DNA of 64,000 nucleotides, from assembly GCA_949710005.1 (NCBI GenBank), contig OX453279.1, positions 9,612,378 through 9,676,377 of the forward strand, in the 5' to 3' direction. Source of the stretch: Ricordea florida (Eukaryota > Cnidaria > Anthozoa > Corallimorpharia > Ricordeidae). Below the pieces are notes generated by a model. It ran no database searches and was not told where the DNA came from. It saw nothing but the letters and a program-made list of their open reading frames with translations. Below, piece after piece: positions 14,401 through 49,400 of this stretch (positions within the stretch are counted from its first letter, which is position 1; the number at the start of each line of letters is the position of its first letter). A program made the position numbers and the translations under genes.

Positions 14401-15633
14401 CGAGCCACAATGCCACTGAAATATAATTATACCTTCTTCAATAAACACTTGCTGTGATTGGCGAGCTGCCAAGCCACTTTGCGTAATACCACTCCAAAAG
14501 TGGCCCTCCATTCTATAGTTGCTTCACAAGCTTTAAATAACAGGCATGTTGACAACTAGGGCATGGGGCCGTTTAGTATAGTATTTGTATCAGCTCTTAC
14601 TAAAACCAACTACAGTGTATAGAATACAAAGTTTGGTTAGGTGATAAGCTAGTTCGGCTAGATTGCAAAATACCTGGCCCATTCATTTACATGCTACAGG
14701 TAGATACCATATAATTTATTACTTTTAATCATTCTTCTCCACCTACGGGTATAGTACGAACTCACAACATGACCAGCTCTTAGTTGGCTTGATAGCTCAG
14801 TTGGTAGAGCACTGCTCCAGTATCGCAGAGGCCATGGGTTCAAATCCCGTTCAGGTCTGAGTTTGTTTTTTTCAGGCTTTAATTTCACAGCTGATTAAGT
14901 TGTGTACATAACTGTGATGGTCAATTAATATCATTACAAATAGATTCCAGTGTTATATGCCTTGTTCTTTGTTCAAAAGCCTCTGACACATGTAAATGAG
15001 TGGGCCAGGGATTCTGCAATCGCTCCGCCAGTTCTTAATAATACAGTATTTAATTACCACTACCAGTAACTGTGGTGAATGAAAGTGGAAGACTAAAGCA
15101 TACTACTGACACATTTTACTTAATCATGCAACATTTGCTGCGGATTCTGAGGATACAACTACCCATTAACGTAATAAGTGTGGAAAGCAAGACAATTAGG
15201 AAAGAGTATAGGAGATGGAAGTCGCCGGTAAAACTTACGTTTCGATGGAATTTGCTGAATGAATGGAACATGTAGAAGCGATGCACGTACACGATAGCGG
15301 TATTGATGGTCAGTTGACTCCTACATAACAGAGTTAAGGAATGTAACAATGAAGGACCTTAAAAGTTTCCAGAAAAGAATAGTAAAAATATTTGGCATGA
15401 TAAAGCAAATATCGTGATGTAACAGACATGCAATTGCAATTAAGAAAGGCGAGCAATAAATCGCGAGGATACACAGAAAGGCGTTGTCCCATATCTTGAA
15501 TAAGCGTTGCTGACTGTTGCCTGTAACTCTGCTCTTTTTCTGTATCGATCCCGTTCTTTCTAGACGGTGTATTTTGCAGTTCTTCTTTAGTGAAGTAGAA
15601 CCGATCTGTAGTACTCACAGCGCTGACCGCCAT
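5497..15633 (-). CDS. CCNT: cyclin T (P-TEFb regulatory subunit), complete, 10 exons
   Basis: Cyclin T pairs with CDK9 to form P-TEFb, the nuclear kinase that phosphorylates RNA polymerase II and pausing factors to release elongation. Exons, in order of translation, are 15633-15473, 15320-15239, 11774-11646, 10745-10685, 10426-10364, 9118-9073, 7872-7782, 7472-7400, 7091-7009 and 6717-5497. All phases agree and give 669 residues, near the 726-730 of human CCNT1/2. Family hallmarks are [15 protein letters not shown] near the start, [77 protein letters not shown] and DGKDWWEY across the two cyclin folds (about residues 5-260). The large last exon codes for a disordered tail with a His/Ser/Lys-rich stretch (about 420-545), as in vertebrate cyclin T, and polyproline runs reaching the C-terminus. 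The exon 9 donor is GC, not GT. The start is the first ATG of exon 1, inside CCAAGATGGCGG, 120 bp from the divergent UBR3 start. MITEs fill the introns. Confidence 0.95.
6718..7008 (-). other. CCNT: GC-AG intron in cyclin T
   Basis: Read on the minus strand, exon 9 ends AAG and the intron begins GCAAGT; the acceptor is TTGCAG before GGTGTT. The surrounding AAG|GCAAGT is the strong context expected of GC donors. The phase 0 join gives ...SVANLKGVVPHSK..., so the reading is consistent. Confidence 0.75.
8142..8281. mobile_element. hairpin MITE, GTTATTTACCGGGC type
   Basis: GTTATTTACCGGGC at the left returns as GCCCGGTATTAAATAAC at the right. Inside, AGGTCTGTATGG pairs with CTATACAGACC and GGTCTTGAGTAC with GTACTCAAGACC, so the unit can fold into one long stem. 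A degenerate relative starts at about 60115 (AACCGAGCAGGAGGTCTGTATGG). It lies in a cyclin T intron. Confidence 0.75.
9585..9712. mobile_element. MITE with AACCYTTTAAGCCCC inverted repeats, copy 1
   Basis: TTAACCTTTTAAGCCCC at the left matches GGGGCTTAAAGGGTTAA at the right, a 17-bp terminal inverted repeat (TIR). An internal near-duplication of AAAATCGTCTRGCRTTAGCC is visible. A second, longer relative lies at 43011-43222. Confidence 0.7.
9762..10087. mobile_element. foldback element, GTTRCAGGTCATTTTG arms
   Basis: GTTACAGGTCATTTTGTTCC at the left pairs with an inverted copy ending in CTGCAAC at the right. The arms are over 100 bp long and contain repeated TTGTTTCAACCTAGG motifs. The inner part (AGGTCATCCAATACAGAAA, ACATTCATTAAAGC) is shared with the palindrome at 34008-34166. 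Both ends abut TATA sequence. See the family finding. Confidence 0.75.
10096..10221. mobile_element. small foldback element, GTTRTRGTTCARTTTTAT arms
   Basis: GTTATGGTTCAATTTTAT at the left and its inverted partner ending CTACAAC at the right bound about 126 bp. TTGGTTTAAATTTTC pairs with GAAAACCAAATTTGAACCAA. It sits 8 bp from the preceding foldback element. Confidence 0.65.
12121..13043. mobile_element. non-autonomous TIR element, TACCGTATTTTCCGG termini
   Basis: TACCGTATTTTCCGGTGTAT at the left is exactly inverted at the right end (13024-13043). GGTGTATAAGTCGA occurs twice near the left end and again inside the right end. No transposase is visible in the 920 bp, so it must rely on an enzyme supplied elsewhere. 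It lies in cyclin T intron 2. Confidence 0.85.
13978..14008. repeat. poly-G / purine tract
   Basis: About 20 consecutive G are followed by an AG-rich tail in cyclin T intron 2. This is simple sequence; the minus-strand ORFs reading through it as polyproline are spurious. Confidence 0.7.
14267..14520. mobile_element. MITE with AACTATAGAATRC TIRs
   Basis: AACTATAGAATACGGGGCC at the left matches the inverse of GGCCCTCCATTCTATAGTT at the right, and both are followed by CACTTTT. The interior repeats CTTGCCAGTCAAA-like and GGCGAGCTGCCAAGCCAC-like blocks. The element has no coding content. Confidence 0.75.
14784..14859 (+). repeat. tRNA-derived SINE head (tRNA-like)
   Basis: There is an intact A box (TAGCTCAGTTGGTAGAGCA) and B box (GGTTCAAATCC) at tRNA spacing, with a short CTGC/GCAG stem in the anticodon region. 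The acceptor arm does not form well, so I call it a tRNA-derived SINE fragment rather than a functional tRNA gene. The antisense reads as the familiar spurious RDLNPWPL...ALPTELS peptide of such repeats. Confidence 0.65.
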
Positions 15634-15753
15634 CTTGGAACTGCAACAAGCTCACCACGCATGCGCCAAATACTCGTTCCAGTCCTCGCACGATGGCGAT
15701 TCCCAACAATCCATGACGCAAAGCACCACAGCAACAACAATGAACTTAGCAAA
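15634..15753. promoter_or_regulatory. probable bidirectional promoter between cyclin T and UBR3
   Basis: Only 120 bp separate the two divergent start codons. CCGCCATCTTGG (15629-15640) spans the cyclin T start and AAAATGGCGG (15751-15760) spans the UBR3 start; both match the YY1 consensus AAnATGGCGGC. A CACGCATGCGCC resembling an NRF-1 site lies at about 15655-15666. No TATA box is seen. This is the layout of a housekeeping, YY1/NRF-1-type bidirectional promoter, though transcription starts themselves are not visible. Confidence 0.6.
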
Positions 15754-18438
15754 ATGGCGGATTGCTCAGTGAGGGCAAAACAAAGCACTGCCGCCAATTT
15801 CAAGGCTCACTGCCATACAGAGAAGGGAAAAAGTGAAATTAGAGCCTTCTTAGATGGTGTGCTTAGTCTTCAACATCCGTTTGACACTGAAAGACAAGAC
15901 TGGTGTTCATGGCTGATAGCAGGAGGGAGGCCTCCAGAGGAATTTAAACATGTCTTAAGATCTTATGACACTCCGACAATTTGCGGTCTGGTGTGGAATA
16001 AAAACTTTGTGGCGTATCGTTGTAGAGACTGTGGGATCTCTCCGTGCATGTCATTATGTGCGGACTGTTTTCATGCTGGGAATCACGAAGGCCACGATTT
16101 TAACATGTTTAGGAGCCAGGCCGGCGGTGCTTGTGACTGTGGTGATGAAGATGTTATGAGGAAGGAGGGGTATGCATTTAGTTATGGCAGCTTACAGTTT
16201 GCTGCTTGTTACAGGAAAATCAATAGCTCATTATTTTATTGCATAAAATCGTTTGTAAATTCTTTACCTTAAAAGTCTCGGACGTGAATTCAGTTGAAAT
16301 ACCTGTACTAGTTTATTTTAAGAATAATAATTATTTTTCTCGAACTCAATTTAGGTTGGAGGTTTTTTTTATTTTGTTTTGGTGCAGCCACACTGATGCT
16401 CTTTTGTGTTAATATTTATATCTAAGGCCATAAAAATGGACTGTAACATTTTATATATTTTTGACCCTTACAGCCTTAAGGCTGATAGAAGTTTGATACC
16501 TTTTTTTTCTTCTGCAAATTTGATTTTAGGGTTAAACTTTCAATGGATTTAAAAGTTTTGTTTGCTCCAAATTGCTTGCTTTTCTTCATTCAAGGCAGAT
16601 TAAATCAAGAATTTTATGGTTTAAATGATATGGTACTCTGCCTGGAATTTGAGAGATGATTTTTTTTTATAACCCTATATAAGTTAAGAATACTTTTTTA
16701 AGAATTAGTCTTATCTAAACTTGCAGTGTAAATACTATAGTTATTAGTTAAACTCTGGTAAGTCGAACTCTGAAGAGAAAGAATGCAGTTCTAGTTAGCA
16801 AGGGTTTATATGATTGGTGTTGAATATTCATTAGGCCATAGTATACAGCACAGTGCAAATTAAACTTGTCTTGTCAGAAAGTGTAACATGTTTATGCATT
16901 CTTATGATGAAACAGTACTGTGGCTGTAACTCACTCACATGTACATACTGTAGGCGTACAGGTGGGAGGGGGAGGGTGTGCTGGCCCCACCCCTCTCCCC
17001 CCAAAAAAATTGAGGCAACTTGGATTGTTTTGGGCATGAAAAATAATTTAATTTGAATTACTGCAGAATTCAAGTTATCAGAGTTCAGGTTAACAGAGTC
17101 AAGGTGACTGAAAAGTGGGGTCAATTCCAAGGGAAATGGGAGTTTGATTTAGCAGGGGAGTTCAAGTTACCCTAGTGCAGGTAACAGGGATTCTGCTGTG
17201 CATACAACTAATTATTAATTGGGGCTTGCATTTTTATCTTAGCATTGTATTTTCTTTATGAAAGTTACATATGTACCAATATTGCTACATCTCATACATG
17301 TACACTGTAGATGTTGGATGAAGTTATTGATCAGTTATGCCAAGTCATTGTTGATGCTAAGGTAAAGGCGCACAGAACTGGAGCTTATCCTGGTTTCTGA
17401 AGCATGAGGCACCTGGGAGTAAATTTTACTCTCCCCAGGATGGGATGCTAGTCCAACACAGGGTTATCCCCAGCATTCTATCTCTGGTACCCAATTATAC
17501 ACCTGAGTGGAAAGAGACAGTGTGGAGTGAAGTTTCTTGTCTAAGGGAACAACATAGTGCCACTACCAGGGTTTGAACTCTAGACCTCTTGCTTGGAAGT
17601 CTGACACCCTAATCACTACACTACCGTGTATCGACATGCCAAAGACAATATGATAATATTGACTATGACATCCTAATTTAAAAATAGTTGTCTAATACAC
17701 TTTGTTGTTGGAGAACCTTGAAAGTAGATTCTTAGCAGTGATAAAATGATTCCCTGTAGACATGTACATCCACTGAATTTCCATGTGCACTCACTGGTAT
17801 TATACAAGTGGCACTAGGCTTTTGGCAACTGCATTGTAATGATTATGAAACTCCTTTCAGCTGAGCTTCAGAGACTACTGATTACAGCTTCACATGTTTG
17901 CATTTTCTTTTGATAGTCTAATTGCTTTGTTTCCTGTTAAGGTTTTGTGACCGTCATGGAGCAAAGGACACTGAGCCACGCACACCACCTCCAGAACTTT
18001 TGGCTATGGCACACATTGTTGTCCTACGGCTCTGTATCAGATTATACCAGCAGTTAAAAGAACTGTATCCTGAGGCATTAGGTGTGTTCACTCATGTAAC
18101 TGTCTATGATAATAATTATTATCATTATAGAGTTATTTATAACTGGGATTTCATAAACCATTGGACTACAGGAAACCACTAAGTGCTTGTCATACATGTC
18201 AATGAGTGTCCTGTTCGTTCCTTGTCACAAACTAATAATTATTAGTATCACCTAACTAGTGGACTAATGCAAATGCCACAATCTGATTGGCTACACTACT
18301 AGAGGACTATTAGTAATAGTCATTGAGTAGAGAAATTTGTGACGCTTTCTTTTGTTCTATTCCCAATTAAATATTTTTTCAACTGGCATTTGCTAACTTT
18401 ATGATTGCCTTTTCTGTCCGACTAGTTGGGTGATACTA

Positions 18439-21400: not shown

Positions 21401-24400
21401 TCAGGTTAAATTTAATTTAACCTACAGTAGGTTGGTTTGTAATTTCTCTGTCTATATTTATGATAATGAATACCAGGCACAAGTTTAATAAAATTAAAAT
21501 TAATTAGTTCATTAATTTAATTTCATTAAAAATTCAAATTCAATTATTTAACCAAGGTTAAATCAATTTAATAACCTGTTCATACCCCAGGGTTGGTGCA
21601 AAATTTAAATGCAGATATGAGAGCTTAGAATGCACATTCAGTATAATTCTTTTTGAATACAATTTGATGATTGTATGCTTTGAAGAAAAATAGAGAAAGT
21701 TATCGGAGAAAATTCTTTTTAACAAGAGAATAAGAAAGCCGGGTTAAAATTTAACCCTGTCTTTACGCTAATCGGCCTTTGAACAACCTGCCCCTGAAAT
21801 CAAAATAATTTAACCTTTACATACAGTGTATACCCTGTAACATTTTCAGTATACTGTACATGTACACTACTAAGCACGTGACATTTGCTACACCTTTCTT
21901 TATCTTGTGTTATTGCAGATAGAGGTTGTTATCATTTGGTTGTCAACTGTGATGATGCTGCTCTTCGTCACCACTGTCACTGGCCAATTGTCAGTGACTT
22001 CATTAATGTGTTATCACACAAGTCAATAGCAGAAATCTTTATGCAAAATGTTGACCTCGTAAAGCAGTGGATGTCGTTCATTGGATTTCTGACTGGTAAG
22101 TTAAACAATATAATTACTGTTAGCCATTTGTGTCCTCTTAAGTAATGGTCTGCGTAAGAACTAGGCAAAAGAACAATAGGCTAGTGCAATAGCTCTAACT
22201 TTTGATTGGCGCATAGAACAATGCTAATATTTGACCGTGAGGTAGACAGGAGGGACCTGGGGAAAACTAAGGAGAAAAATGTTGTTTATGTCGGGTTTTT
22301 CATTGTTTTTTCGGCGATTTTTGGCCGTCCACCAATCAGATTCGTCGATTTAATTGATATTAACAATTAAGAGTTCACACTTTTTAATCGATTTTGCGTT
22401 TGACCTGCCTAGTTCTTACGCGGACCATTACTTAATATATACAGTATCCTGCAGGAGGACGCAGGTCTCTGGATCAAATTGAAATGAGAAAACATTTCAA
22501 TAACATGCGTGAATTCATTCAACTGGTAAAGTTCATACAAATCTCCCATGTGATGATTAAATTAAAATGACAGTTATGATGTGGTTAGGAAATCAATACA
22601 GTCATGACTAAATGTGACCATGAACGGGAAAACGTACCTTAATGCTTATCCGTTAAACGGGTAAAAACTAACGGATAGTTAACGGCCATCAAAGCGTTCT
22701 AACGGTTTGCTTTAATGTTCTAACGGCTAACTAGTTGTGCCTACCAGATCATTAAAGCTTTCTATTGTTTTGTCCTAACGCTCTAACGGCTAGGTAGTTA
22801 TGCCTAACGGATGGTGAAAACGTTCCAACGGTTGTGCAATTTGTTCTAATGGATGGCTGGAACCATTATAAGGCTTAGAAAAAAATCAAACGGATACTGT
22901 GCAAGTTTCTAACGGTTATCTAGACTTCAGCGTTATTATACAGTTTTGACGTATGGATAGCGTGTAGTGGTAGCTTGCAGTCTGATGTTATTGAGCCGCC
23001 GAATATTCTTACAGTCTCGGTACAGCAAACAACGCCTGCATGAAATGTTGATTTCATTGTTCACGAATAAGTAATGGAAGGAACACACAATAATAACTAT
23101 TGCGTCTCACTATCCATTAAACTTCGAAGATTATCGAGATAAGGTTGCACCCAATGACTTTGTAGTCCAATGCAAAGCGGAATTAAGACGACCATTTCGT
23201 GTTGGAGGCGGATTCAACATTATTTTAGAGTCCAAGACATGCGGCTTAGTTCTTATTATGCCCAGATGTGCCACTCAATGCGGGCGTTAACAAACTCGTC
23301 AATGACATGTTTTTACTTTGTTCAAATAGTCCTTGGTTGATTGCAAAGATGGCATGGTATGTTTTTCGTTTTGGATTGTGTGATGCTGGCGTTGTTGACA
23401 TTCATTCATGACTTAATTTTTTAGGTCAACAGCGACATCAAAATAATCGTTAAACCTTTCACTGAAACAATCATAGTTCTCATGACTTGATGTAAACAGA
23501 GCGAAGAGCTGCTCTTCGTTTAGGCTCTCGATCATTTTAAGTAATGGTCCGCGCAAGAACTAGGCAGGCCAAACGCAAAATCGATTAAAAGGTGTTAACT
23601 CTTAATTATTAATTTCAATTAAATCGACCAATCTGATTGGTCGATATCAAAAAATCGCCCAAAAAAACAAAGAAAACCGCGACATAAACATCATTTTTTC
23701 ACTTAGTTTTCCCCATGCCACTGTTTTCCACCTCACGGCCAAATTTCAGTATTGTTCTATGCGCCAATCACAAGTTAGAATGGAAAACGTGCAACAAGCG
23801 TGATCCTCATGCGACGCCATCTTGGATTTGCGAACGGAACTTTGAGCTTTCAAGACCTTTTATCAGCGATAGTCGTCATAGTTTTCAAGAAATCTATTTA
23901 TTTTCATACTTTTCGAATATATACATGTTATTTATTTCAAATGTAAAGCAAATTACGTCCAAACACTCGAAAAAATGCCCTTCAAGAGTGGCTGCTGCTG
24001 TCCACAACATGAGGAGTGGGGCTTTGGAAATGTTGGCCTGAAAAAGTTGTTTTCTCTCACCTACCGAGAAGAAAAGTTTTGTGGCACTGGCAAGTGGAGT
24101 CTTTCTGGCCACAAGGAGCGAAGGCGAAAGATATGTGGCTTTTGTCGGGAAAGGATTCAACTCCAAACGAGATGTGAAGAACTTGAGGTAAGCAGAAGAC
24201 AGTGGAAACATTTTCACACGTCCTCACGTGTTACCTATTATTTCTTTCGAAATATTCGTCTATATATTTACTCCTCTTTATTTGATTTTGCTATTTTCTA
24301 GGCTGCTTCATCAAGTCACAATGAAGTTTTCCATGAGCGTAAATTCGAAGAGTCTGAATTCTTCGATGATCCAGTCGAAAGTGACAGTTTCTCGGAGCAT

Positions 24401-27400
24401 TTTGGAGAAAAAGCTTCAGAAGACAAAGCTTGTCAGGTCCCGGAAATCACCCAGAATCGCCAGGGCTACGAATGTGTTGGTCTTCGGAGGAAGATTCACC
24501 TTAGGAATGAAATTATGAGCAAAATAGACCTGCTGCTGGGGAACTACACCTTCCTTGGTGAGCAGGGTACTCAGGCCATCATGAGAGACATTCTTGGTAC
24601 CAAAAAATTCAGAGCTGAGTTTGCTGATGTATTCAATAGCCACCAGAAAGGCAGCAGCGATGATAAACTGTTGAAGTCATTAGCTAAGGACTACATTGCA
24701 GCCAAAGATAAAGACGGCAGCCGATTGATACGGGCACAGGGTGCAAAAGTAACCAGCAAACTTCTCATTGGTGACAGCATAAAAGGAAGTAACTTGAATG
24801 TGAGTGGAGTGGGACAAGGAAGAAATCGAGTTGAGACTGCACGAGCTATTGGACGAGTCAGTAAGTTTGGGGATGAACGTAGAAGGCTGTTGTCAATTGT
24901 AGCCCAAGACTTCTCTAGGTCTGAAATTCAGACGTATTTTCCTTGCTCAAAGAGCACCATCACTGCAGCAAGAGTGCATGCCATATTGTTTGGAAAAGGT
25001 GGTGCCCCCCGCGATGGTCTTTCGTTTACTAGGCAGGCAGTAAGCCCAGAAATCATACACGAATTTCAAAATTTCATCAACCAAGATGATATCTCAAGGC
25101 CTTCTTCGTGTAGAAGTGTGCTTGTTTATGGAAAGGAAACTGGGATCAGATACTGGCAGTGTGATATCAAAAATGTTATCCAGCAATATCAGCTGAAGTT
25201 CCCTGATGGTCTGAAGAGGACCTACATTTATTCTCATCTGCCAAGGAATTTTAGAATGAACACGATGCTGGCAGGCCTTTGCAACCTGTGTGATGACTTT
25301 GGTCATTCTAACTTTGAATCCATGCAGCTACTCCTAGATGACCTCAAAAAGGATGGTCTGCTACATGCCGCTGCTCATTCTGAATTTGTCTCAAGCACAA
25401 GACAGTACCAAAAGTTTCTGAAGGTGGAATTTCCCAAAGAGGTAAGCAGAAATACAGTACAATATTGGTATTATTTGAAAAATGCTGAATTTGTAGCTAG
25501 GGATGGACAGTGAAATCTAAAGTGGTCTGTCACTGACTAATGTACTGGATGTTATGAACTTTGTACATAGTTTTTTGTACATTAGTCAACATCAGACAAG
25601 TTCATTTTCATCAAGGAACGATTGTTTAAGCAATGGATAAGGGAAAGCTTTTACTTCGGAAAACTAAACATGTTCAATTTGTGCAACAATTTATAAATAA
25701 ATGAATTGAAATTGATAAAGAAATTAACTTATCGGAACATTGTTCTCAACGTGTAGACCTGTGTATTGTGTAATGTGCCTTGAAAACTGGGGTTTAGGTA
25801 AATGGTATCAAAAAACATTGAACAGTTTAGATTTGGTTGAAGCTGATGTTTTCTTAATACCAGGCTGTCAAACATCTTTCCAAAAGTTCATTGAATATTG
25901 ATCCTTTTGATAAAATGAATAATTATGACAAGATAGATTTGCCCTGAGGAAAATCGGCCAGCCTTGTGGTCTTGTAGGGCAATGCTTTGGCTGTTTATTA
26001 TGGGTCAGGCTCATGTAGCATCGCCTGCAAGGTCTTGCATGAATGGGTTGCTTTCTGTCAAATGAATAATAGAACAAATAACAGGAAACAGTGGCTTCTG
26101 CCAGTAGTGCCAGTGGGATTACTAGCTTACATGAGACCATAGACCATCATCTGTAATTAGCTGCCTGTATTGTTTTTCCCTTTTTTGTTTAGCTGGAGAG
26201 GCATTCTGCTTGTGCTGAGTTCTGTTTGGATTTTGCTCTGGGGCACTGTTCCAGGGAACACAACCAGCATTCTTCCAAAGTAGATGAATTTCACAAGATC
26301 AGGAAAGGTGTGGAAGAAGCTCTGGAACAAATTTCTGATCTGCCCAAAAAGGCTTCCTTCTCCAAGTCCTGGGAACAAATTATTTCGAACCATAAGGAGT
26401 ATCTTGCACACATTGTCCGCACAAAACACCAGGGAAGCTACTATCGCTATGTTCTTGCAAACCTTTGTCCTGGTGAGATTGTTGTAATCATTGATTACAA
26501 GATGAAAGTTGAACTGGGCCTGAGGACTCGTGAAAACCAACGAGAGTGGTACGGAAAGAGGGGGATTTCTCTTCATGGTTTCCTAGTAATTGCACAGGTT
26601 AGTTCTTTGCTGGAACCTAACTTTATGTACATTTGCATATAACCCTTTTGATATTGTAAACTTGTACATCCCATTTGATTTTAATTCATTTGTTTGATTA
26701 TTTTTATGTCTTAGGTTGCGGAGGGACAGAGAAAGACAGAAGTCATCGACTTGTGGTCCGAAGATACTAAGCAGGATGCCTGGTTTACCCAGAGTGCCCT
26801 TGACATTGGGTTCAGATGGTTGGAAACTGTGTACCCGGGATTTTCAGTGTACTTGTTTTCTGGTAGGCTTATTTTTAAAGAAAAAATGTAGTTCCTGAAC
26901 AAGTTATGCAGTAACATGTAATAGTAGCTTGTCAACATGATGTGGGGCACATAGTGTCATAATTTGTTCTTTGTTTCCATTACAAAACTAAAAAGGTTTT
27001 TTCCTAGTTCTTTACATAATAGATTTAAAGAAATAGATAATGTTAATAAATATATTATAAAATTAATGAATTTGACTTGTTTTGTTTAGACAAGCTATAG
27101 GTTGTCAACTTTTTGTTATTGTTTTGCTGCTGTTTGAATTTTCCAAACTTTCGTATATAGATCTGTAATCATCACCTGAAAGAAACGAAAGGCAAAGAGA
27201 ATCAAATAGTCTCTAATTTTCTAAGCTATATGTATATGTTGTGATTTAAATTTATCTTTGGTTTAAAATTTTTTAAACCAGTTTGATTTTTATTTTTCAT
27301 TGTCTCGTGGTCATTATTATAATCTGAAACAAAGGGAAATAAAAATCAAACTGGTTTGAAAAATTTTAAACCAGAGATACATTCAAACCACAACATATAT

Positions 27401-30400
27401 ACCATTCTTACTTCCTATCTTTTAGATAATGGGCCACATTATCACAACAGTGGGGTTCTCTTTTACCTATCTGAAGTGAACCAAACTTTTAACTTCACCA
27501 TTAAGGAGTACAACAACTTTGAAGCTGGTGAGGGGAAGTCACAACTCGATTCCCACTTTGCCCACATCAGCCACAAAATTGTCCGGTGGGTGCGTTTGGG
27601 AAACAACCTGGAAAGTGGTGAACAAATTGCAGAGTTGATAAAGGTAAATTGTACATTGCATGTTTATTTCATGTAAACCAAAAAAAAAACCCCTTGTTTA
27701 TAAGAACATGGCTATAGGTTTTATGTTGGTGGTGAAGGTGATACAGTGTAAAGTCAGTCTGCATTGCAAAGTCAGTCTGCATTGCAGATTGAAAGGCTAT
27801 CCTGTGTGCTTTTGGTCTGTTGGCCATGTAAATGGTCTGTAATACATGTAGGAGTGCCTGCTGTTTGTTTCATTTATCATTGTTGAAGATAACCATTAGC
27901 TGTACTGTGTTACTAGCATTGAGGGAGGTGCTTATTTGTCATTTGTTGGGTTTATAATACTAACTTAAAACAGAAGCGTTCATCGTTTTCATACATTCAA
28001 TCTTTTTTCCCTACAGACAATGAAGAATTCATCATGCAAGAAGCTGGTGATAGACAGACCCAAGGCAAAAAAAGTGTCAACTTTAAAGGATATTTCCTTA
28101 TTTGGAAACTTTACCTTTCCTACTGAAGGCGAATTTGCTGATGGTTTGCAGTTGAGGCCATTGGCAGGGATTGGCAATGCTATATGTAAAACCAAGGCAC
28201 AAATATCACAACTGTCTGGGCGCCAGAATCCCATAGCTGGTGCAACTGGTGCTTTGGTGACTGAAGAACAGCCAGCAGCAGAACCTCTTGAATGCCCAAC
28301 ACCTTTTCCAGCTACAAGGAATGAGGACTATGCTTTAAGGTTTATTCAACACGCCCCTGAGCAGTCAGTCACTTCATCAATGCAGCCCTTTTTGGTTGAC
28401 CAGTATCTTTCCCAGAGGCTGGAAAAGGGATATGCTCTAAAACATGGTCCAGGAAAGAGGACAGTGTTCAGCCAGGCACAGAAAGAAATAATGGTTGAGT
28501 TTTACAATAGACAAGCCATTAATCACATTAGAGCCGAACCACGAGATGTGATTAAGGCAATGCAAAATGCTGGCTTGAAAGTGCTTACAGCGGCCCAAAT
28601 CAAGAATTGGTGGTCGACTTACCACCGCAAGAATAGAAATTTACTTGCCACTGGATTTCCTGCTGCTAGTGATGTCCCTCACAGTGCACCATCAGTCACT
28701 ATACCATCCACTGCATCATCAGCTTCCGTTCTTCCCAGTTCAACATCTGCTACCATGCCTTCCAGGGCACCACCTGCTACGGTACCATTGTCCTCTGCAT
28801 TGCCAGCTACTGTGCCTTCCAGTGCTCCACCTGCTACAGTTCCATCATACCCAGCTACTGTGCCTTCAAATGCATCCTTTGCTACATTACCATCGTCCAC
28901 TGCATTGCCAGCTACCGTGCCTACCAGTGCACAATCTGCTATACACATAGTACCATCGTCCACTGCACACCCAGCTACTGTGCCTTCAAATGTATCGTTT
29001 GCTACATTACCATCGTCCACTTCATTGCCAGCTACTGTGCCAACCACTTTAACTGGCCATCTGTCACAACTGTCAGGTGCTGTAATAGAATGGCATTTCC
29101 CTGAAGATTTCAGTCAGTCCACTATTGATGTTAGGAATGGAAGCAATGCATGTGCTTTCATTTCTCTGTACTTTGGACAAGTGGCTTCGAAGGGTCTACT
29201 TTCCCCAAGGCAGGGATTTGCATTGACTGTTCATTGGAAGGATGCCCTTAGAGAAGCAATTATGCGAGGAAATGACTTGCATGATGAAATGTTTGATTAT
29301 GAAGGGGTAAATCTTAACGTGGATGAAGCAGTTGAAATGGCTGGAGAGGACTGTGGCGTTCTCAGCCTTGGACAGCAGAAAGATTTATTTGGTGGTACTG
29401 GTGTTGCAAAACAGTTACTTGCTGAGTTTCTTGATGAATTATCTGGAAGGAACCAAAGAACTTGTCTCCTGTTTTTTTCTTCTGGAAGAACAATGCTTTT
29501 ATTTGTTGACAGTCATGGACATTTCTATTTTGTGGATTCACATTCCCACAGAGACTGTGGAGCAATTGTAGCAAGTGCACCACCTGGTTCCGGAGCAGCA
29601 TTTACAGAATGGATTGACAGAATGATGGACTTAACTTGGCAGACCCCTCTTACTTTGGGGTCAGTAACTGAGGTTATTTATGCATAAGGGCTGACATTTT
29701 TTTTAGTGTACGCTTGCATCACGCAAAAATCACATACCAATTTCATAAAAAGAGTAGCACAAGTACAAATGTTTTAGACTGGGAGCAGGCTCTCCTTTTT
29801 TGTGGCATGGAAAGAGGTTCAAAAGCAACAATTGAAGTTGCATTTGAGATAAGCACGCACAGGCACAATTTTGTCCTGGCCCCTAATTGTTTTTACCACT
29901 GATTTGCATGATTGATCCCCTTATTGTATTCACTATGGGATCTGACAAAATTGGATGACAGTTCAAAACACATGTATTTTTGTGCTGCTTGTGTGACTTT
30001 CTTATATCAACATACATTTACTAGTAAATGTAGTATCCAGACTTTTCTCAAAGGAAAACAAGAGAGGAATTTATTGTTCTAATTTATTGGAAAAATTGCT
30101 GTCAACCTCCTGGAATTGGTCAAGTGATTATCAACAGTTTCGGAAGAAAACACCAGTTTTCTGATGTGGAAAGCGTGTGATGAATGTTCATCAATCATGT
30201 CTTTGTTTCGAAAAAAAATTATGATTAATACAGAAAGTTTCAATAGGATGTTGTTTGCACTTAGGATTTATTTTTACCTCATAATTTTAAAACAGAGGTC
30301 ACTATTATCAGGGTTCTCTTCCATCCAAAAATAGAAAAGTGCTATGTTGTTCATTCTAAAAAAGGGAAAATCTAGTTAGTTGAAATGTCTTGATGTTGAT

Positions 30401-33400
30401 TTTCTTATGGTCTAAGGTCATTTCCAGTTAGCCTTGTAGTGCACTCGAGAAACATTTGCATTATATTATCATTGACAAAAATATGCTCTGATCACTTGTT
30501 CTGTGAAGTTGCAACAATGACAGTAAAGGTACTATAGAATAGTAATAGAATTATTTATTGTCAGTGGATTTCTGTAGGAGGGAGTGTTTTGATTGGTTGA
30601 AGGAATTCGCTGTGTAAAGGGGGTTTGTACATATCCACCACTCAGCCCTCCCCCCCCCCCCCAAAAAAAAAAAAAAATAATAACAAAAAAATTAAATATG
30701 TATGTACATATAAAATAAATAAAATAAAACAAGACAGGATCTCGGGGAATGTGGAAGTGCTAACTAAATCCATATAAGACAAAACATAAACATAGAAAGT
30801 TTACGTTGATTCCAAAAACATTTTTTTTTTATTTTCCAGCAATGAAATACATAGAAAAGCCTCTGTCATGGAAAACGGAAACTGAAGAATGAAAAATTAG
30901 TATAAAAATGACAAATAATTTGATGTTGAAAACTGCCTTGGTTACATAAATGCATCATTCACTTGACGTGTTATATCGTAAATTCCAATTATAAGCTATA
31001 AGTTGACTATTTCATTGCCTTTGCTAATTAGCAGAGGGGTTTACACTAAAACAGTATGCACCAAACACCACATGGGATATAATTGGGAGAGGGAGCCTCT
31101 CGCGTCTGGGTTTTGATGTCAGATTATCGGGGTAGGATGGGTGGTGTTCGTGTGTGCGTGTGTGTGTGTTGGCCTGGGGGGGGGATACTTATCATTGGAA
31201 TTGTACGGTACATGGGAAAGAGATTACAGCTCAAGTTCATGATCATGAATCAGGCATGCTAAAACAAAACGTATTTGATTATACGAGTAAGTTTGTTCAA
31301 GGTTGTCCCTTACGGTGCGAAGTTTCTTGTCCTCGTTAGCCATGATTTCACCCTTGATGATCTCAAATGACCGCTTGTCAACTCTCAGATATTCTGCCAC
31401 AGTTGTGTGGTTTACATCTGCTCCAGCAGCAAGACAATCAATGCCGTAAACCTCGGCGGTTGCTTGGGCAATACTCAGCTCGGTCGATATTGTAGCAAAA
31501 TTTTTCCCCAGCTTAAGGCCTTGCATCACCAGTCGTTTCTGAGGCGATGGATTGTTTTCTGCCATAAAGTCTGCAAAGCTCCATCTTCTACGGCAAGAAA
31601 AGAAAATCCGATTTTAGTAAACGAAAATGCCTAAAAGTTAAGAAATCAGCTGATATACTCACGCCGGAATCTAACTTCGTGCGCTTCGATTCCGAGGGGC
31701 CATCTCCATGTGATTGCGAAGACTTCTTTCTGAAATAAAAACAGAAAGTCAGAACAAATAAAGGCACTGATTCGAAAACTCAAATCGCCAGCAAAATTGA
31801 CTTGCCTCTGTTCCATTTTTTTCGGATGAAGAGTTGTTCCAGGAATGATTCACTGTCAATACAAATTGTAAGCTTGCAGTGGATTCAATGAATGAGGCGT
31901 GGAAATAAGATGCAAGCGGCAACATGAATGAAGATTCGGGCCAATCAAAAGGTGTGAGATTTACGCAATTTGGCACTTTTTACCGAGTAGCTGAAGTTCG
32001 ACCAAAACAGCTCGAAGAAAGGAAGCTCGTTTATTTTTGGAGGGCGCTTGTGTTTGATTATCTTGGCCCGGAAGATCTTGCAAGTGTTGCTTCGGTTTGC
32101 CTAACTTGGTGGAAATTTGTTTTCGAGAACAGAAAGCATCTTCACAAAGATTCATTGAGTGTCAAGATCTCATCTTGTGCACACAGGAAGGGTCATTGGT
32201 TCTAAAAACAATAGATAACAGGTCATAACAATGCCCCTAGCCCTGAATAACAATAGAGGTAGTGTTTACAGCGGGCGAATGAAAATAGAGGTTCCAGAGA
32301 GGTAGTGTCTTACTGCACAGGAAGGCTTTACCACAAAGTTCCGCTGAAATTGTATTCTCGAGGCTACACAGAATCCACTTGTTTAGGACATGCATCTCTT
32401 CCGTGAGAATGTTTTACAACTGGTTTCAACTGCTACGCGACATCAGGAATTGAACATACGAAACTGTGAGGGAATTGCAGGGTAAGCGCTGTTTACCGTC
32501 ACTTCGATTCTCGAGATGTATAAAGATTTTACATAACGAACAGTTCGGCGTTCTCGTTATCGTTTGTCTCCGTTCATTGGGAAGTCTAAAAGAAATTTGT
32601 TGTCTGAGGAATCGATTTGTTTTTACCAAAGACCTTCCCATGGACCCGGGCCCACGGATCGAAAATGGAGTTGATCTCGAGCTGAAAACCGACACGGGAG
32701 ACGGCGATTTTTTTTACATATGATGGGCATTGCTTCAGACTATGATGTTTCAGAAGACTTGTTTTGAAAAGCTTTACCGAACGTTTACATTGAGGTCTTT
32801 TTTATTTTGTGTATTTGTTATGGTTGACGATATTTCGCGCGACTTTGGCGCGTTCCCAATATCCGCGTGAGTTGTTGCTGTTCTGAATCACAAATTGACA
32901 GTTCCTTTGTGAAATCCGAGCGAAATGTTTTTCACAAGGTCGCTGATTGATGTATCGCTGAACTAATCCCGAAGCTATTTTATATCATTGTAAATTTCTC
33001 GCTTTTGGCACGTAGAAATTGTCCAAATTTTAGATATGTTACAGTTTTGAATGTATTGAATGGGTAGCTGAAATAAAATATTGTTTGAATGATATACAAG
33101 TTATCTTAAATCAAATTCTAAATTCAAAATTCGCGCTTTTAGCGTATGGGCCAATCAGGTCGTTCGGATTTAATTTGATTAGAGAAATTAGCGCCTGAAG
33201 CCTAACTGACGCTATTTCACTAGCCTATTGTTCTTCTGCCTAGTTCTTACACGGACCATTACTTAAACTGTTAGGCGCCTGATCATTCTTTACTTCAACA
33301 TCTGCTATGCCATTCTAACGGATGTCAAACAGCTATTAACTGTTTAACAGATTCTAATTTTTTCTAACGGCTTTGCTACCCGTTCTAATTTCTGCTAATG

Positions 33401-33836: not shown

Positions 33837-35845
33837 CAGTTAATTTTTGTTTTCAGTTAATTTTTATTTTGAACTAGATAATTTTTTTCTTCCTAGTTAG
33901 TTTTATTTTTAGCTAGGTGATATTTTTTAACTAGGTGACATTTTTTTAACTAGGTGATATTTTTTTTAACTAGGTGATATTTTTTTAACTAGGTGATATT
34001 TTTTTAAAAAAATACAGGTCACAGGTCATTGTTTTACCAATACAGAAATTATCCTAAACATTCATTAAAGCCAACCTTGGGACTTATCTGACCTAACATT
34101 AGCTTTAATGGATGTTTAGGATAATTTCTGTATTGGTAAAACAATGACCTGTGACCTGTATTTTTTATAATAATATACATGAAAAAATTTCTCCATTTTG
34201 ATTGGCTAAGAGAAATGCAGTTTTCAGTTAACACAATGCAGAAAAGGGGTAATTCAGTGCAAAATGACGTAATAAACCAAGCATTCTGATTGATCAATGA
34301 TGAAAGAAACACACAGATAGCCAATCAAATGCAAGCCCTTTGTGGCGCAAAATTTGGATACACTGAAAATTTGCGAGTGAAACAATGGCCGGCGTTTTAA
34401 GTAGGTTTTCTTTCGCCACCGCAACAACAATACAAGAGCTGAAAAACAGCTCTAAAAACAAAAATACTGTGAAAAGCACTGCTTTTTGGTTGTCGGTGTG
34501 GAATAAGTGGTGTTTAGAGAAGAGAATTTCTGAGAAAATCGAAAACTATGAGCCGGCGGAGCTGAACACTTAGCTCGAGCGATTCTATGCGGAACTTAAA
34601 AACAAACACGGTGAAGATTACGAACCAGAAAGCCTGAAAGTAATGATTACATCACTTGATAGACACTTGAAGAACAAAGGGTATAGCCTGTCCATTGTTC
34701 GCGACAGAGAATTCAGTTCCTCCAAACAAGTACTGGACGGGAAAGCGAAACAGCTTCGCTTGGCTGGCCGCGGCAAGCGCCCAAACAAAGCTCGACAGCT
34801 ATCCGAAGTGGAGGAAGAAATTCTCTGGAAGTGCGAGAAACTCGGTGGTAAAACCCCAGAATCCTTGATTCATACAATGTGGTGGCTACTCACCCAACAA
34901 TTTGGTCTCCGTGGAAGACAGGAACATCACGGAATGAGACTGAACCCTGAAAGGTGACGACGGCCTTGAATTTGTCGAGTTTGCTGAAGGGCCAACGAAA
35001 ACCAGACCTGGAGGTTTGAACGCAAAACCAAGACAGTTTCAACCAAAAATGTTCCAGACTGGCGGAGAGAGATGTCCAGTTGCGTTATTTCGCCAGTACA
35101 TCAGCCGTAGGCCTCCCAGTCTCAGGCGAGTGGTGCATTTTATCTCTCGATAAAACACAACAGAGGACCTGGCGATGAAATCTGGTACAAAGTCCAGCCC
35201 ATGGGAGAAAATAAAATCAACTCCATGATGAAAAACATCATCTCTGAAACCACCCTTGAGTCATCTGAGAAGCGATTTTCCAATCACAGTGCCCGCAAAA
35301 CACTCGTAAGCAAGATGAAGAAAGCAAATCTCGAGAGGTCGTCAATTGCAAAAGTCACTGGTCACAGAAATATCCAGTCTTTAGACGACTACGATGAAGC
35401 AGACCAAGACGAACAGCGACAGCTTTCCTGGGCCATCTCGAAGGGAAATAGCACAGCAAAACCCAGTAGTCAATCTGGTCATTCTACTTCAAACGCAGTA
35501 ATTCCAGACATGATGAGCTCACAAGCACAGAATCTGATGAATTCCTTCACTAACTGCACTGTCACATTCAACCTCAACAGCAAGACCTCGCCTGTCATTA
35601 AACCTTGCAAACGACGATTCCATTTCATCGAAATTGATTCGGATACAGACTGATACAGACAATTCCTTGAACTTCTCAGCTGTACTTTGAACTTTTTTTG
35701 AGTCAAACTGTTATTTTGATCGAAAAGCGGTTGACATTTCCATGGTTTGAATAAATTATTTTTGCACGTGATTAGCGCGCGTTGCTTCTGCATAATTATG
35801 ATGACATATCGCATTTTTTCATGTATATTATTAAGAAGTAATCAC

Positions 35846-36059: not shown

Positions 36060-37425
36060 ACAATCGACCTCAAATCGCATCCGATCGCACAATTCACGAA
36101 AAATCGCATAATTCAAAAAATAACGCACAACGTTCATAAAATAAAGCATGAATCAACAAGTGTCTTTGGAATTCCTGCAAAAATACGCCATTTTCAAGAT
36201 GATTTACCTTGGAAAAAGGCTAACAAGACTCTTTCACGTTCGATTTTGTATTCATTCGAAGTTAAGGCGTTATTTTGAATGTCAAGGACCTGGTACGAGT
36301 CTCATTCTTAAAGAGTCGCCTATTGGTGTAACACAAACACGCCCCTTGTTCAGATTAGCCAATCTGAATGGCTGTAATTTCCGGCCATTTACCCGCACGG
36401 CGGACTACCCCCACGGGTGATTTTTGCCAAAAGGAAAAAGGGAATCGTCAGAACACGCACTTGCACATAACCCGCACACGAAAACAAAACAAACTTATGC
36501 AAAATAGGTAGAGAACTCACAAAATTTGAAGCTATGGAGCGCTTTGAAAATTGCTCTGAGCCTTTCAGGCATTTTTTAATTGAACTCGTATTTCTCGTAA
36601 TTGAGTGCTAAGGCAGTGCTAGCTAGGAATATTTAGCTGATGCGTTGAGTATTCTTACATTATTTTTTTATCACAGACAATGTTAGGTTTGCACTGCACG
36701 TGTGTCGACAGACGTCAGCGTCATGTTTCAGTTTAGCTCCACCTCTTTCCCAGGGTTCTCTCCTACTCGGGGGCTGAGTGGGAGAGGACCCTGGGAACGA
36801 GGTTGAGTTTAGCTTTGTGTTTTACACAATAAAATTGTTTCATATAAAGCAGAAACGCATTCAAAATGTCTTAAGAGCAGCAAAAAAGTGTTTTTCTTAT
36901 CCTGAAACCTTATAAAACAAGCTTAAAATTGCTCAGAAAAAAATCGCACAATCTTCATTATTTATCGCATAATTGGCCTCTGTAATCGCATAATCTGCCC
37001 TGCAAATTTCGCATAATTTGCATTTTTTTATTGCACCCTATCAGAAGGCCTGCAGCTAGTTAAAAAAATGTCACCTAGTTAAAAAATATCACCTAGTTAA
37101 AAAAAATGTCACCTAGTTAAAAAAATATCACCTAGTTAAACAAAAACTATCTAGTTCAAAATAAAAATTAACTGAAAACAAAAATTAACTGCAACATATG
37201 TATATATATATATATATATATATAGGTAACTGACGAAGGTCTAAGACCGAAACGTTTTTTCTATTAAATTTTTAACTTTTTAACTTTTTTATCGTCAGAA
37301 GTTGTCCGTCCTTGCTTTATCTAACGTTTTTAAATTCATTTTTGTGGTGAGGCTTGGACTGTGAATCTTCATTGATCCTCCTGACGCAGTGGCATTCTTT
37401 GTTGGCTTGAGGCATTTTATAACCG

Positions 37426-37456
<31 letters not shown>

Positions 37457-40400
37457 TTTTAAATGCAAAGGTAAATGCGATCTTTGCCGTAACTTTTTAG
37501 TTGAATCTGACCACTTTACTAGCGCTAGTTCTAAAAGATCCTACCAAATTACACAACATGTTCATTGCAAATCCAAAAATGTTATCTATTTGGTCACCTG
37601 CACAAAATGTAGTGTGCAATATGTAGGTTCGACTAGCAATGAATTCAAAGTGCGTTTTCGGAATCATAAATCGGCCATGAATACTAATAAGAACACTTGT
37701 GAAGTTGCGACACACTTCAACAAAACTCTTCATGTTCTCTGTGACTTCAATTTTACAATAATTGAACAAATTTCCAACCCAAGAGACAATAACAGCCTTG
37801 ATGAACGTCTTCTAACAAGAGAAGCTTATTGGAGTGCACAACTTTGCACCCTTCAGCCTTATGGATTGAATAAAAGATCTGAATTCAATTCAAGGAATAG
37901 AATAAGATTTAACTAACATCTGTCAACGGTTTTGTTTCTTTTCTTTTCACAAGTCTTATTACGTAAAGTTTTTATTCTATATATGTTAATCAAGGGCCCA
38001 ATTAGGGATCACAAATTGTATCACTAATTAGTCCCTATTCATTAGGTTTTTATTAGATGTTAGTTTTTTAAAAATTTTTATTGTTTGTAATTTTCTTTTT
38101 TCTTTCCTTTCTCATATATAAGACACCAATATTGTAAATAATTTTTTTATTCCAAGTATTTGTAATCTTTTTAATCTTACATACTGTACTGAAGAAGCCC
38201 GAATGGGCGAAACGTTTACAGTATTAAACCTTATGTGAGAAGTTCGCTGTTCCTCTTTCATTCCTACTAAATCCACCGAGTGTAAGCGTCGCGTATCCTT
38301 TGGGATCCTTCTCACTAGCGTCATCGTTGGCAAACCTTCTTTTCTACACAACTATATATATATATATATATATAAATGTCATTTGGTACAAGCTCAAACC
38401 TATGGATGGGTGTCTACTGTTTGTACAACTGAGGGTGTATATTGTACACTAGTAAGTTATGAGTAGAACACTCAATGGTATTCCCCAAGACACATTTAGC
38501 ATCACATAACTATGAATACAATTTCCTGCAACCTAACTGGTTGATTGGCTGTTTCTGCTTTTGTACAGTTCATGCATGGTAGAAACAATGGAATCCTTAA
38601 TCCTTTTCCGTTAGTTTTGTTTTGACCATCACAACCTTCATGTTACAGGTCTGTACAATAATACACCTGTAGTCATATTAAATTTTGTGCCTTTGTTTGT
38701 CATTCCAGGGATGAACGTGAACACCCGCAAGCTACTCACACACATTGAATATGAACCCAGTACATACTATACTGCATTTTCTATGGAGCTGGAGGCTGCT
38801 TCCTCTCCAGTCTGGAGCCTCAGAAATGCTTGTGTTACTCTGGTATGTGTGCTTACCGAGGTTGTTATAGAGCATACTTATTTTTCCTATTTTTCTTGGA
38901 CATTTTCTGTCCAAGGAGGCAAAGCACAAAGAAGTTATCCCTGTGTGAAGCGCCAACCCAAAGGCCAGACCACAACACCGGGAACTACATCCCCTACTCT
39001 TTACGATCAGTGTGTGGGTTCTTTAACATCCTACTAAGTTAAATTAGGGTTACAAAGGTAGCACTTTCTGCATGTTCGTTTGGCCAGGATTTGAACCCGC
39101 GACTGCTTGGTCCTTAAATGCTCTACCAACTGAGCTAACCTGTCGGCAGTTATGATCATTGTTGACACATTATTAAAAGGTGCACATGCACACGTGTTAC
39201 AAGAAACAAAATGGTCAGAATGCATCCTAAGTTTAAGGAAACAACGAATGTGATTGTTATTCCTCATTGGACCATTTATCCTCATCATTGCATTACCATC
39301 CTGACTGTTAGCCCATCCTGACAATTGTCATTTCAGTTATTCCTTCAGGCAAAATGAGATACACGATATCTGGATCTAACTTTCTCATTAAAGAAAAATA
39401 ATAACACAATGCTATATGTATTACTTGAAGTGAAATTAGTGATCTTCCAGTCTGAAATCCAACATGCCAACTGTGCATTTAACTAACGGCCTGACTTAAG
39501 TGGATAGTGGGTACCTGGGATACCCAGGGGCTTCCACTGTGGCCATGCAGCCATCCCCTAGATAGAATACTGCCCCCATGGCTGGCAAATCCCTGCAACC
39601 AAGCCATGAGCCCCCATTCCAGGCACCCATGACACTGGTGAAACAGTGGAGGCGAAGGTGGCAAAGCTTAAAACAGCTACAGTAAGCTTACAACCGCTTG
39701 ACCGCTAAGCTTACACATTTTGCTTGTGGGCCACTTAACCCCAAAGCTTGTGGTGGTTAACTTAGTTAAATTACATTTAACCAAATTAAATTTGTTTGTA
39801 TGGAAAATTTGATCAAAATTTTAACTTTTTTGAGCTAATTAGGTGACAAGTTATTTGTGGAGATTATTGAGTACTTTTAGGGAATGCGTCCAAGTATAGG
39901 CATCGGGTCATGCTAATGCCAATCAGTTGGGTGCCAAATCCCATTGCCGATTCTGTTTTCAATCGGTACCGATTGAAATGGAATCGGAAATGGGTCAAAA
40001 TTCTTCATCAGGCCAATTAACATAAGTTATCAAACATTGACTTATATCTGTCTGTGGTTTATCAAGGGTCGAAAGGGTTGAAATACATGTAGTCGGTCAC
40101 GCTATGATCAAATACTAAGTTTATGTAGCAAAAGCAAAGCGTGAATGATTGATTTTTTGATGCACAAACAGGCTGGGTATGACCAACTGTTTATCGCCGT
40201 ATTGTATCTTGTGTTTGCAAAATGTGTTTTGTTTCAAACAAAATTTAGCAACAAATTGTTCAGCAACGCTCAAGATAGAAGAGCATCTCAAAGCGAAATA
40301 TGGGGCACTGAATGCATGACCTTTGAATCCAAAACGCATGATTGAAGAATCCTTGCGGGAGGAATTTTAAATTGTTTTAGCGAAGAAAATAGGGCACAGA

Positions 40401-46400: not shown

Positions 46401-49400
46401 TTTTTATCTTTAAAGGCTGTATCTCAGTTGAACTTGCCATTAGAACAAATAGTACCTTCACAAGACCTGTTAAAGAACATCTGTGTAGATCTCCTTCATA
46501 TCCAGGTAAGGTGGCTTGTGCTGTACAAAATGATTTCTACTTGAACCTCTTGCATCTAGCAGAGTCTTAGACTGAATTGGTCTTTTTTCTCAAACTTCTT
46601 CCCTGTAGCACTGTTTTTAATACATGTAACTTGTACCCATGATTTTTCTTGTATAATTAGATAAATTTTTCTCGTGATAATAATTATTATTAAATTTTCA
46701 ACCTCAGATATTGAGCATTTCTAGCCTTCTGATTGGCTCATTCAATCTCAGTTATCAGCTCATTTACCTTTATAGTTTGGCAATATTATAATGGAAAATG
46801 ATCACGGCATTTGCAAGTGTTGCCAAGCTAAAAACTGGCGGAATTAGGGGAATAAGTAGCTTAGACGAGCTTTCTACTGAAGAAATACAAGCACGAAGGG
46901 AAAATGCTGTACTGGCAATTATCAAGAAAGCTAAGTTTTCTTACAGATAAAGAAAGGAATTCTAAGTCTTGTCTGAAACACTGATAAAGGTAACCCTACA
47001 AAAGTAAGAATAAAGTTTACCTATAAAATTTTCAAAAGGTCTTGCAAGACTGTGTACATGTAGCATGACGTTTTTTGGCAAAGCCAAGTGAAGAAATGAC
47101 CGAACAAGAGCTTATTTTAAATCTCATGCAAGATTTTTAGCACGCCTCCAATGAAAAATGATGGATGTTTCACCAAGGGTACTTCAGTAACATTCATTTC
47201 ATATTTAGCTCAATTTTCAGTGATCAAAGCATCTAGATCAATATAATTCCATTTGTACTTGCTGGATCTGAAATTGATGATAGCCAACTCATATCCATTG
47301 TACGCTCATGGAATATTGATTAATTATAGAAAAAAAATTCTTTTAATTGCAAGTTTTAAGTGGTTTAGCCTAGTTACAACCTCTTACATTCTCTACTTAG
47401 CTCCCATGTAGCACTGTTCAGTACTGCCACTAGGTTGCCAAAACAAAAAGACCAACAGATTCAAGCAGGCCCAAGAGTTGAAAAATGCATATATTTAGTT
47501 TTGTGTTCACAAGGGAATACCTGTGTGCTCTTTTCCGTAGTACCCTGTATCTAAATTTAATCGGCAGTAACATTAATTACTGTTAATTTACAATATGTTC
47601 TGCATCCTGTGGTCTTCCAATGCTTCTCAATTTAAATTTAAATTTGGGAGCAGGGTTGGGGCAGTGGTGAGAGTGCCCGCCATCAAATAATGTGGCCTGG
47701 TTTGATTCCTGGCCCCAGTGTCATATGTGGGCTGAGTTTTTTGGTTCCCCTCTCTGCTCCGAGAGGTTTTTTTCTTGGTACTCCAGTTTTCCCCTTTCCG
47801 CAAAAACCAACAATTGATTTGATTTAATATAATTATTGGTAAATGAAGAGCTGCTCTGTACATTTGTTGCCAATAAAGCCGATTATTATCATTATTATTA
47901 TTATTATTATTAAATGTAGTCTTTCAAATATGTATTACGTGTTCTTAATGTAAACAGCATGACATACTCACATCACTTACACTACCTTTTTGGGCATCCT
48001 ACAGGTATGTAAGTCAGTTCCAACAATAACTGCTGTTCAACCCAAATTTATTGTTCCTTTGTGAATTCATGAAACCCCTGTTTCCTTGTATGTAACAACA
48101 TGTGTGCATTGATAGCAATTAACACATTGACCATAAAACAAGTTACAAGAAGCGTGGATAGCAAAGTTATTTTCCTACTAGGCTGCTATTTGTGAGATTC
48201 GTGCTGGCCGGTGGGTACGTAATGGTTTCCAGATCAGAAGCCAAGTGCGCTTGTATATGGAGTGTCACTTCTGCAATTCCATGCAGGATTTAGATATTTT
48301 TTTACTGCAGGTATGCTTTATTTTAATGTCAGTCAATATAATAGTCGTAATCCAAACACTTGTTATATATTACTTATTAACCAAGAGTGAGTTCATTACA
48401 TGAAAATATAGGACTGAGGCCTTGATGTATTTGATGTCAATACATCAAGGCTGAGGTAAGTTAATAAGGTATTTATTGCGTGGTCTTTTAAGCACTGGAA
48501 AAAAAAGAAGGGTTTTTCAATATCCGCTTGCATATGCAAGAGGTCATTCAAGATCATGTTCACTGAACCAAAACACACCTAACCATGCAATTGAAACCAG
48601 AAGTGACAGAAGAAAAAGTTTCTTCAAAATTGAGACAACTTTTGTTTATATTTAAAAGTATAGTTTCTTCAAAATTGAGACAACTTTTGTTTATATTTAA
48701 AAGTCCAATTTCTTCAAAATTTAGACAACTTTTGTCTATATTTAAAAGTATAGTTTCTTCAAAATTGAGACAACTTTTGTTTATATTTAAAAGTCCAATT
48801 TCTTCAAGATTTAGACAACTTTTGTCTATATTTAAAAGTATAGTTTCTTCAAAATTGAGACAACTTTTGTTTATATTTAAAAGTATAGTTTCTTCAAAAT
48901 TGAGACAACTTTTGTTTATATTTAAAAGTCCAATTTCTTCAAAATTTAGACAACTTTTGTCTATATTTAAAAGTATAGTTTCTTCAAAATTTAGACAACT
49001 TTTGTTTATATTTAAAAGTCCAATTTCTTCAAAATTTAGACAACTTTTGTCTATATTTAAAAGTATAGTTTCTTCAAAATTGAGACAACTTTTGTTTATA
49101 TTTAAAAGTATAGTTTCTTCAAAATTGAGACAACTTTTGTTTATATTTAAAAGTCCAATTTCTTCAAAATTTAGACAACTTTTGTCTATATTTAAAAGTA
49201 TAGTTTCTTCAAAATTTAGACAACTTTTGTTTATATTTAAAAGTCCAATTTCTTCAAAATTTAGACAACTTTTGTCTATATTTAAAAGTATAGTTTCTTT
49301 AAAATTTAGACAACTTTTGTTTATATTTAAAAGTCCAATTTCTTCAAAATTTAGACAACTTTTGTCTATATTTAAAAGTATAGTTTCTTCAAAATTGAGA

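Follow-up and report, generated by a model that had tools for sequence, protein, structure and literature searches.

The 64,000-nt stretch of Ricordea florida contig OX453279.1 analysed here (hereafter the window, whose numbering is used throughout) contains a transposon of approximately 9.7 kb, spanning positions 23541–33262, whose principal protein appears to join a DDE-type transposase to a cysteine-protease-like domain. Our preferred interpretation, to which we attach a probability of roughly 0.72, is that the element is an autonomous cut-and-paste transposon that targets TTAA and has been active recently. Its transposase would comprise a Cys/His-rich N-terminus, a DDE core and a helix-turn-helix (HTH), and a linker rich in Ser, Thr and Pro would connect these to a cysteine-protease-like domain resembling the viral-tegument-like deubiquitinases (VTDs). 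The element would also carry a second, antisense gene of HTH_40 type. Comparisons were made within the same genome (537.8 Mb in 48 contigs), where loci related to the window element are denoted by L-numbers (L002 and so on).

The first-pass annotation, made from the sequence alone, described a 9.7-kb TTAA transposon with 27-bp terminal inverted repeats, and that description holds: TTAA adjoins both ends, the left and right repeats are identical at 25 of 27 positions, and each end reads 5'-GTAATGG, giving termini of the form 5'-GT...AC-3'. It also proposed comparing other genomic copies and their ends, and this recovered four further full-length copies, each bounded by TTAA, which brings the total to five with the window's own; internally deleted and diverged copies are also present. 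The four are 99.60–99.78% identical to the window copy (approximately 8.5 kb of each was compared), and all five lie in differing flanking sequence. The copy on contig C15 sits inside a repeat, and a genome search with its two flanks placed on either side of one TTAA, 116 nt in all, returned 14 matches, namely nine full-length matches at 93–98% identity, the two flanks of the copy itself and three partial matches. The nine full-length matches are unoccupied sites, and the C15 insertion therefore duplicated TTAA; the element has been mobile in the past. An assembly artefact was considered and rejected, because the copies sit at separate places in differing flanks and empty sites exist.

The terminal sequence itself is widespread. 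A 26-base pattern of the end, allowing C/T at three positions and no mismatch, matches the genome 437 times (221 + 216) while the reversed pattern, used as a control, matches nowhere; TTAA precedes 416 of the 437 (208 + 208), and TTAA plus the pattern with up to two mismatches gives 556 matches. Among the 100 matches listed, many are paired about 300 bp apart and represent short non-autonomous copies. One such derivative of 290 bp lies some 1.1 kb upstream of the element, its two parts matching the element ends at 86% and 92%. The transposase of the element probably mobilizes the many short non-autonomous copies that share its ends. Elsewhere, contig C4:35444296-35468430 carries six matches to the family's right end, spaced about 4.7–4.8 kb apart, as would be expected if a related element formed a tandem array there.

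The six exons of the main gene join in frame to give exactly 1264 amino acids (aa), as first annotated, and the numbering of D552, D636, E668, C1087 and H1217 was also correct. Four of the five exon joins are independently supported because related proteins read across them: L009 (51% identical) is an uninterrupted open reading frame (ORF) over aa 133–635, crossing two introns of the window gene, and the intronless L069-L071 align over aa 261–746, spanning the same two joins and two more; the join at aa 71 lies outside that support. In L002 and L003, the two other full-length copies compared over all six exons, every exon has the same length as in the window copy and the frame contains no stop. 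The ratio of non-synonymous to synonymous substitution rates (dN/dS) of the main protein is 0.12–0.35 against the five of 13 relatives with estimable dS, which is saturated in the other eight. Relatives in the genome match the protein piecewise, at about 34–88% identity per segment, and no single locus among those compared covers all 1264 residues; between them, neighbouring loci belonging to one family (L009 or L010 paired with L052 or L053) span aa 133–757 and 709–1263. Searches farther afield gave 164 and 43 pattern matches in viral contigs and, for the core only, 103 in prokaryotic genome contigs, none of which was confirmed as a relative. Intron 4 contains at 27233–27399 an inverted repeat, 83% identical to its own reverse complement, which resembles a short foldback element inserted there.

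The case for a DDE core lies in three acidic residues, D552, D636 and E668, conserved in that order among relatives. Residue conservation was assessed by entering 47 of 78 loci, after 31 loci of the element's own family that overlapped or were nearly identical had been dropped, and 38 rows were obtained; a single family contributes many of these rows, and each count refers to the rows covering that residue. D552 is kept in 14 of 14, D636 in 10 of 11 (one gap) and E668 in 12 of 14 (two gaps). A distant comparison is with L069-L071, single ORFs of about 1000 aa that retain all three residues at 23–25% identity and carry the motifs DWAMK...SD(N/E)AGCYH...EPQSGK; to this extent the DDE-like core of the initial annotation is upheld. 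These proteins also keep invariant C/C/C/H positions upstream and a C-terminal HTH segment, whereas nothing in them matches the protease-like domain. Seven other places in the genome match L071 at 95–97%, so that it too is a repeat, and proteins of this type occur more widely in animals. As we read it directly from the sequence rather than from a computed model, the order of elements (a hydrophobic strand ending at D552, two strands, a helix, a strand ending at D636, a helix, a strand, and E668 preceding a helix) would correspond to that of an RNase H core.

The C-terminal domain is conserved at its presumptive catalytic positions and is under purifying selection. C1087 is present in 23 of 23 rows, and H1130 with D1131, D1215 and H1217 each in 24 of 24. 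Its dN/dS was estimable against six of seven relatives (L046 0.15, L047 0.17, L048 0.15, L053 0.36, L061 0.24 and L057 0.20), dS being saturated for L050; the N-terminal region, core and HTH give 0.09–0.36 where estimable, and the linker gives 0.36, 0.46 and 0.60 in three of five comparisons, the other two being saturated. The domain thus evolves as a functional component of the element would. VTDs have an invariable Asp-x-His, and the active sites of two solved examples are Cys322/Asp451/His453 (DrT1-VTD2) and Cys319/Asp440/His442 (Wc-VTD1) (PMC9741609). In the element, a Cys is followed by Asp-x-His with C1087 and D1215 128 residues apart, against 129 and 121 in the solved pair (PMC9741609), an arrangement that fits a VTD-type active site. 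The same domain, at 32% identity, ends a different ORF at L064-L068, and so may have been attached more than once; Pfam finds nothing in that ORF, whose upstream part we take, on the basis of a motif, to be the end of a different transposase. Weaker matches to the domain (25–30%) occur elsewhere in the genome, many in frames of about 300 aa.

A single gene was originally assigned to the element, and this must be revised. Downstream of the main gene and tail to tail with it, on the minus strand, lies a second, small gene that ends at 31224; its last exon is matched by HTH_40 (PF14493) at E 2e-8 and 34.8 bits (cut-off 27; 34.9 bits in L002). Antisense downstream HTH_40 genes also occur in divergent relatives, with identities of 43–47% in L052-L056, 31% in L057 and 34.5% in L058. 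The exons were proposed by eye, and on this proposal the first intron is of GC-AG type. The window copy is frameshifted near the start of the last exon relative to its sisters; among five sister copies aligned, the frame is open through HTH_40 in L002, L004 and L005 and broken further on in L003 and L006, and in L007 and L008 the gene is matched in pieces only. Only a part of the copies thus keep this gene intact. HTH_40 is otherwise familiar from the ends of RecQ-like helicases. An F-box-like ORF at 31909–32205 (+) was rejected as a further gene, scoring 21.3 bits against a Pfam cut-off of 24.3 and occurring, among the loci compared, only in copies of the same family.

Table 1. Features of the transposon and of a short derivative close to it, in window coordinates.
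Feature	Position	Strand	Basis
290-bp non-autonomous derivative, a separate insertion with TTAA on both sides	22142..22431		end matching
Left TTAA target-site duplication	23537..23540		read from sequence
Left terminal inverted repeat, 27 bp	23541..23567	+	sequence; 26-base pattern found 437 times in genome
Exon 1 (aa 1-71), Cys/His-rich start	23975..24187	+	in-frame join; conserved in L038
Exon 2 (aa 72-451)	24302..25441	+	in-frame join and relatives
Exon 3 (aa 452-586), carries D552	26193..26597	+	in-frame join and relatives
Exon 4	26715..26862	+	in-frame join
Exon 5, carries D636 and E668	27426..27643	+	in-frame join and relatives
Exon 6 (aa 709-1264), carries the helix-turn-helix, the Ser/Thr/Pro-rich linker and the protease-like C-terminus	28017..29687	+	relatives, dN/dS
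Likely helix-turn-helix segment (aa 836-921)	28398..28655	+	model; alignable with L069-L071
Cysteine-protease-like domain (aa 1053-1264), C1087, D1215-x-H1217	29049..29684	+	conservation, dN/dS
Second gene, HTH_40	31224..31816	-	exons by eye: 31806-31816, 31663-31729, 31224-31587; Pfam PF14493
Right terminal inverted repeat, 27 bp	33236..33262	-	read from sequence
Right TTAA target-site duplication	33263..33266		read from sequence

Several results weigh against our interpretation of the protein. A Pfam scan of the main protein returned no family at E up to 5, and sequence and profile searches of solved structures with it gave nothing credible, the best hits being a cytochrome through the linker (E 0.09) and designed helical bundles (E 0.18). 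An alignment-free model of aa 836–921 gave a leading helix and a three-helix unit with a mean predicted local distance difference test score (pLDDT) of 72, and compared with solved structures it had no match at E <= 0.001, the best being 0.68. For the protease-like domain, PF04843 (Herpes_teg_N) matched no scanned protein of the element's family. The same profile has 150 matches in the genome (105 reach or exceed its cut-off) and none in any of 14 control genomes, and when these 150 places were compared by eye with the places listed for the protease-like domain, none coincided. Finally, a single-sequence model of the domain reached a mean pLDDT of 37, too poor for a judgement of fold.

These results affect two of the initial assignments. 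The homeodomain-like segment was not recovered as such: Pfam has no match there, and a homeodomain ranks only 12th, at E 1.5, among structural matches that are themselves not significant, so that we reject it as a specific claim and regard aa 836–921 as a likely HTH. The cysteine-protease-like C-terminus stands in its conserved Cys and Asp-x-His and in the selection upon it, and membership of peptidase family C76 is not supported by profile, given the silence of PF04843. Divergent VTDs have elsewhere needed more sensitive searches (PMC9741609). The 150 PF04843 matches, several of which sit in open frames of 900–2600 aa, suggest a large expansion of VTDs in this genome.

The most serious taxonomic rival is that the transposase is a divergent member of a named superfamily, most probably Sola (Sola3), with a captured protease domain. 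Sola3, listed in Repbase as a group of Sola, is TTAA-specific and present in cnidarians, and so shares the TTAA duplication with the element. No Pfam family matches the transposase, which would speak against such membership, though Pfam may hold no Sola model; we consider this alternative somewhat short of even odds. A further reading places L069-L071 and the element in a transposase superfamily outside all those named, one branch of which would have acquired a deubiquitinase of Asp-x-His type unlike the known VTDs, together with an HTH_40 gene as partner, and would have become one of the recently active elements of its host, with ubiquitin removal built into transposition; we entertain it as a tentative and rather improbable extension.

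A second question concerns what the C-terminal domain does. It might be a papain-fold-like relic or a protein-interaction module rather than an active deubiquitinase, its Cys and Asp-x-His serving structure or another substrate, such as self-cleavage or tags of UFM1 or ATG8 type. Such a role would agree with the want of any profile link between the domain and a peptidase family, and the Asp-x-His enzymes UFSP2 and ATG4 do act on other ubiquitin-like proteins (PMC9741609). Against it, no row that covers C1087, D1215 or H1217 has lost the residue, and selection constrains the domain about as it does the core, unlike the presumed inactive insect VTDs, which are described in that source as lacking catalytic residues (PMC9741609). 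On balance we hold this alternative to be doubtful, and prefer a VTD-like protease.

Membership of the established TTAA families was already doubted in the first-pass annotation, and their hallmarks bear this out. piggyBac shares the TTAA duplication and is distinguished by a terminal motif, CC[C/T]T (PMC2872659), which is absent from the element. Kolobok also duplicates TTAA, and its termini are given as 5'-RR...YY-3', with a C/DxxH motif between the second D and E (PMC9587614). The element differs at its termini, and since the 31 residues between D636 and E668 include neither C nor D, both the C/DxxH motif and a zinc finger of Cys type are absent from the interval. Downstream accessory genes are common to both, antisense in KolobokP and Kolobok-1_CCri, and KolobokH and Kolobok-1_CCri carry a RecQ helicase (PMC9587614), whereas the accessory gene of the element encodes HTH_40 without a helicase. 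Hence the view that the element is an unusually augmented Kolobok or piggyBac, for which the shared duplications and the accessory genes of Kolobok lineages might be cited, is very improbable in view of ends that belong to neither, the missing motif and the failure of any Pfam transposase family to match.

The best precedent for the architecture is Ginger1, in which a DDE transposase ends in a cysteine protease domain, either OTU or Ulp1, and which occurs in animals including Hydra (PMC2836005). Ginger1 duplicates CCGG/CCGT and has an integrase of Gypsy type as its core (PMC2836005), whereas the element has TTAA duplications and neither a core nor a protease that Pfam recognizes. VTDs fused to other regions, including transposon-associated domains, are reported from several corals and sea anemones (PMC9741609). 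The transposon VTDs characterised in the same source come from rolling-circle Helitrons (PMC9741609). VTDs resemble the domain of the element in the order of Cys and Asp-x-His, in the spacing seen in the two solved examples and in carriage by transposons; the differences are that the element is of TTAA DDE type and that its domain is missed by Herpes_teg_N. A published description of the element was not found in the open-licence literature, where PMC9741609 comes closest; fusions of deubiquitinases with transposons are already in print, and the element is a further variant with precedents.

The remainder of the window contains features of several kinds. Upstream of the element, an ORF at 15514–16272 encodes a UBR-box zinc finger (PF02207, E 1.7e-18) and is probably part of a host ubiquitin-ligase gene. 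Two ORFs at 34574–35653 match DUF3504 and tyrosine recombinases, and are perhaps a decayed Crypton-type element; a GIY-YIG nuclease ORF (E 1.1e-5) at 37365–37916 perhaps belongs to a Penelope-like element. A long repeat array occupies 48560–51232, with several frames open on both strands, and a 725-aa ORF at 61798–63975 (-) combines a hAT dimerisation region with a C17orf113-type zinc finger.

If our preferred interpretation of an autonomous TTAA transposon with a VTD-like protease is correct, the transposase would bind the terminal repeats, cleave beside TTAA and insert into another TTAA, with D552, D636 and E668 of the DDE core cutting the ends and joining them to the target. By stripping ubiquitin or a similar modifier from the transposase, or from host factors present at the ends, the protease would most likely either keep the complex from degradation or steer repair by acting on repair proteins, while the small HTH_40 protein would probably help to bind the ends or to tune expression. 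Similar suggestions were made for OTU and Ulp1 by the authors of Ginger (PMC2836005), and for Helitron VTDs by Erven et al. (PMC9741609). In the passages of those papers that treat the Ginger1 and Helitron fusions, a role in transposition is suggested and not tested (PMC2836005, PMC9741609). Here the protease fusion is found on near-identical, open and recently moved copies that have short non-autonomous partners, so that what the protease contributes could be measured directly by comparing transposition of a short partner with C1087 present or absent. The element would also add a type of TTAA-specific transposase, in a class where piggyBac attracts practical interest because it excises without a footprint (PMC7351741).

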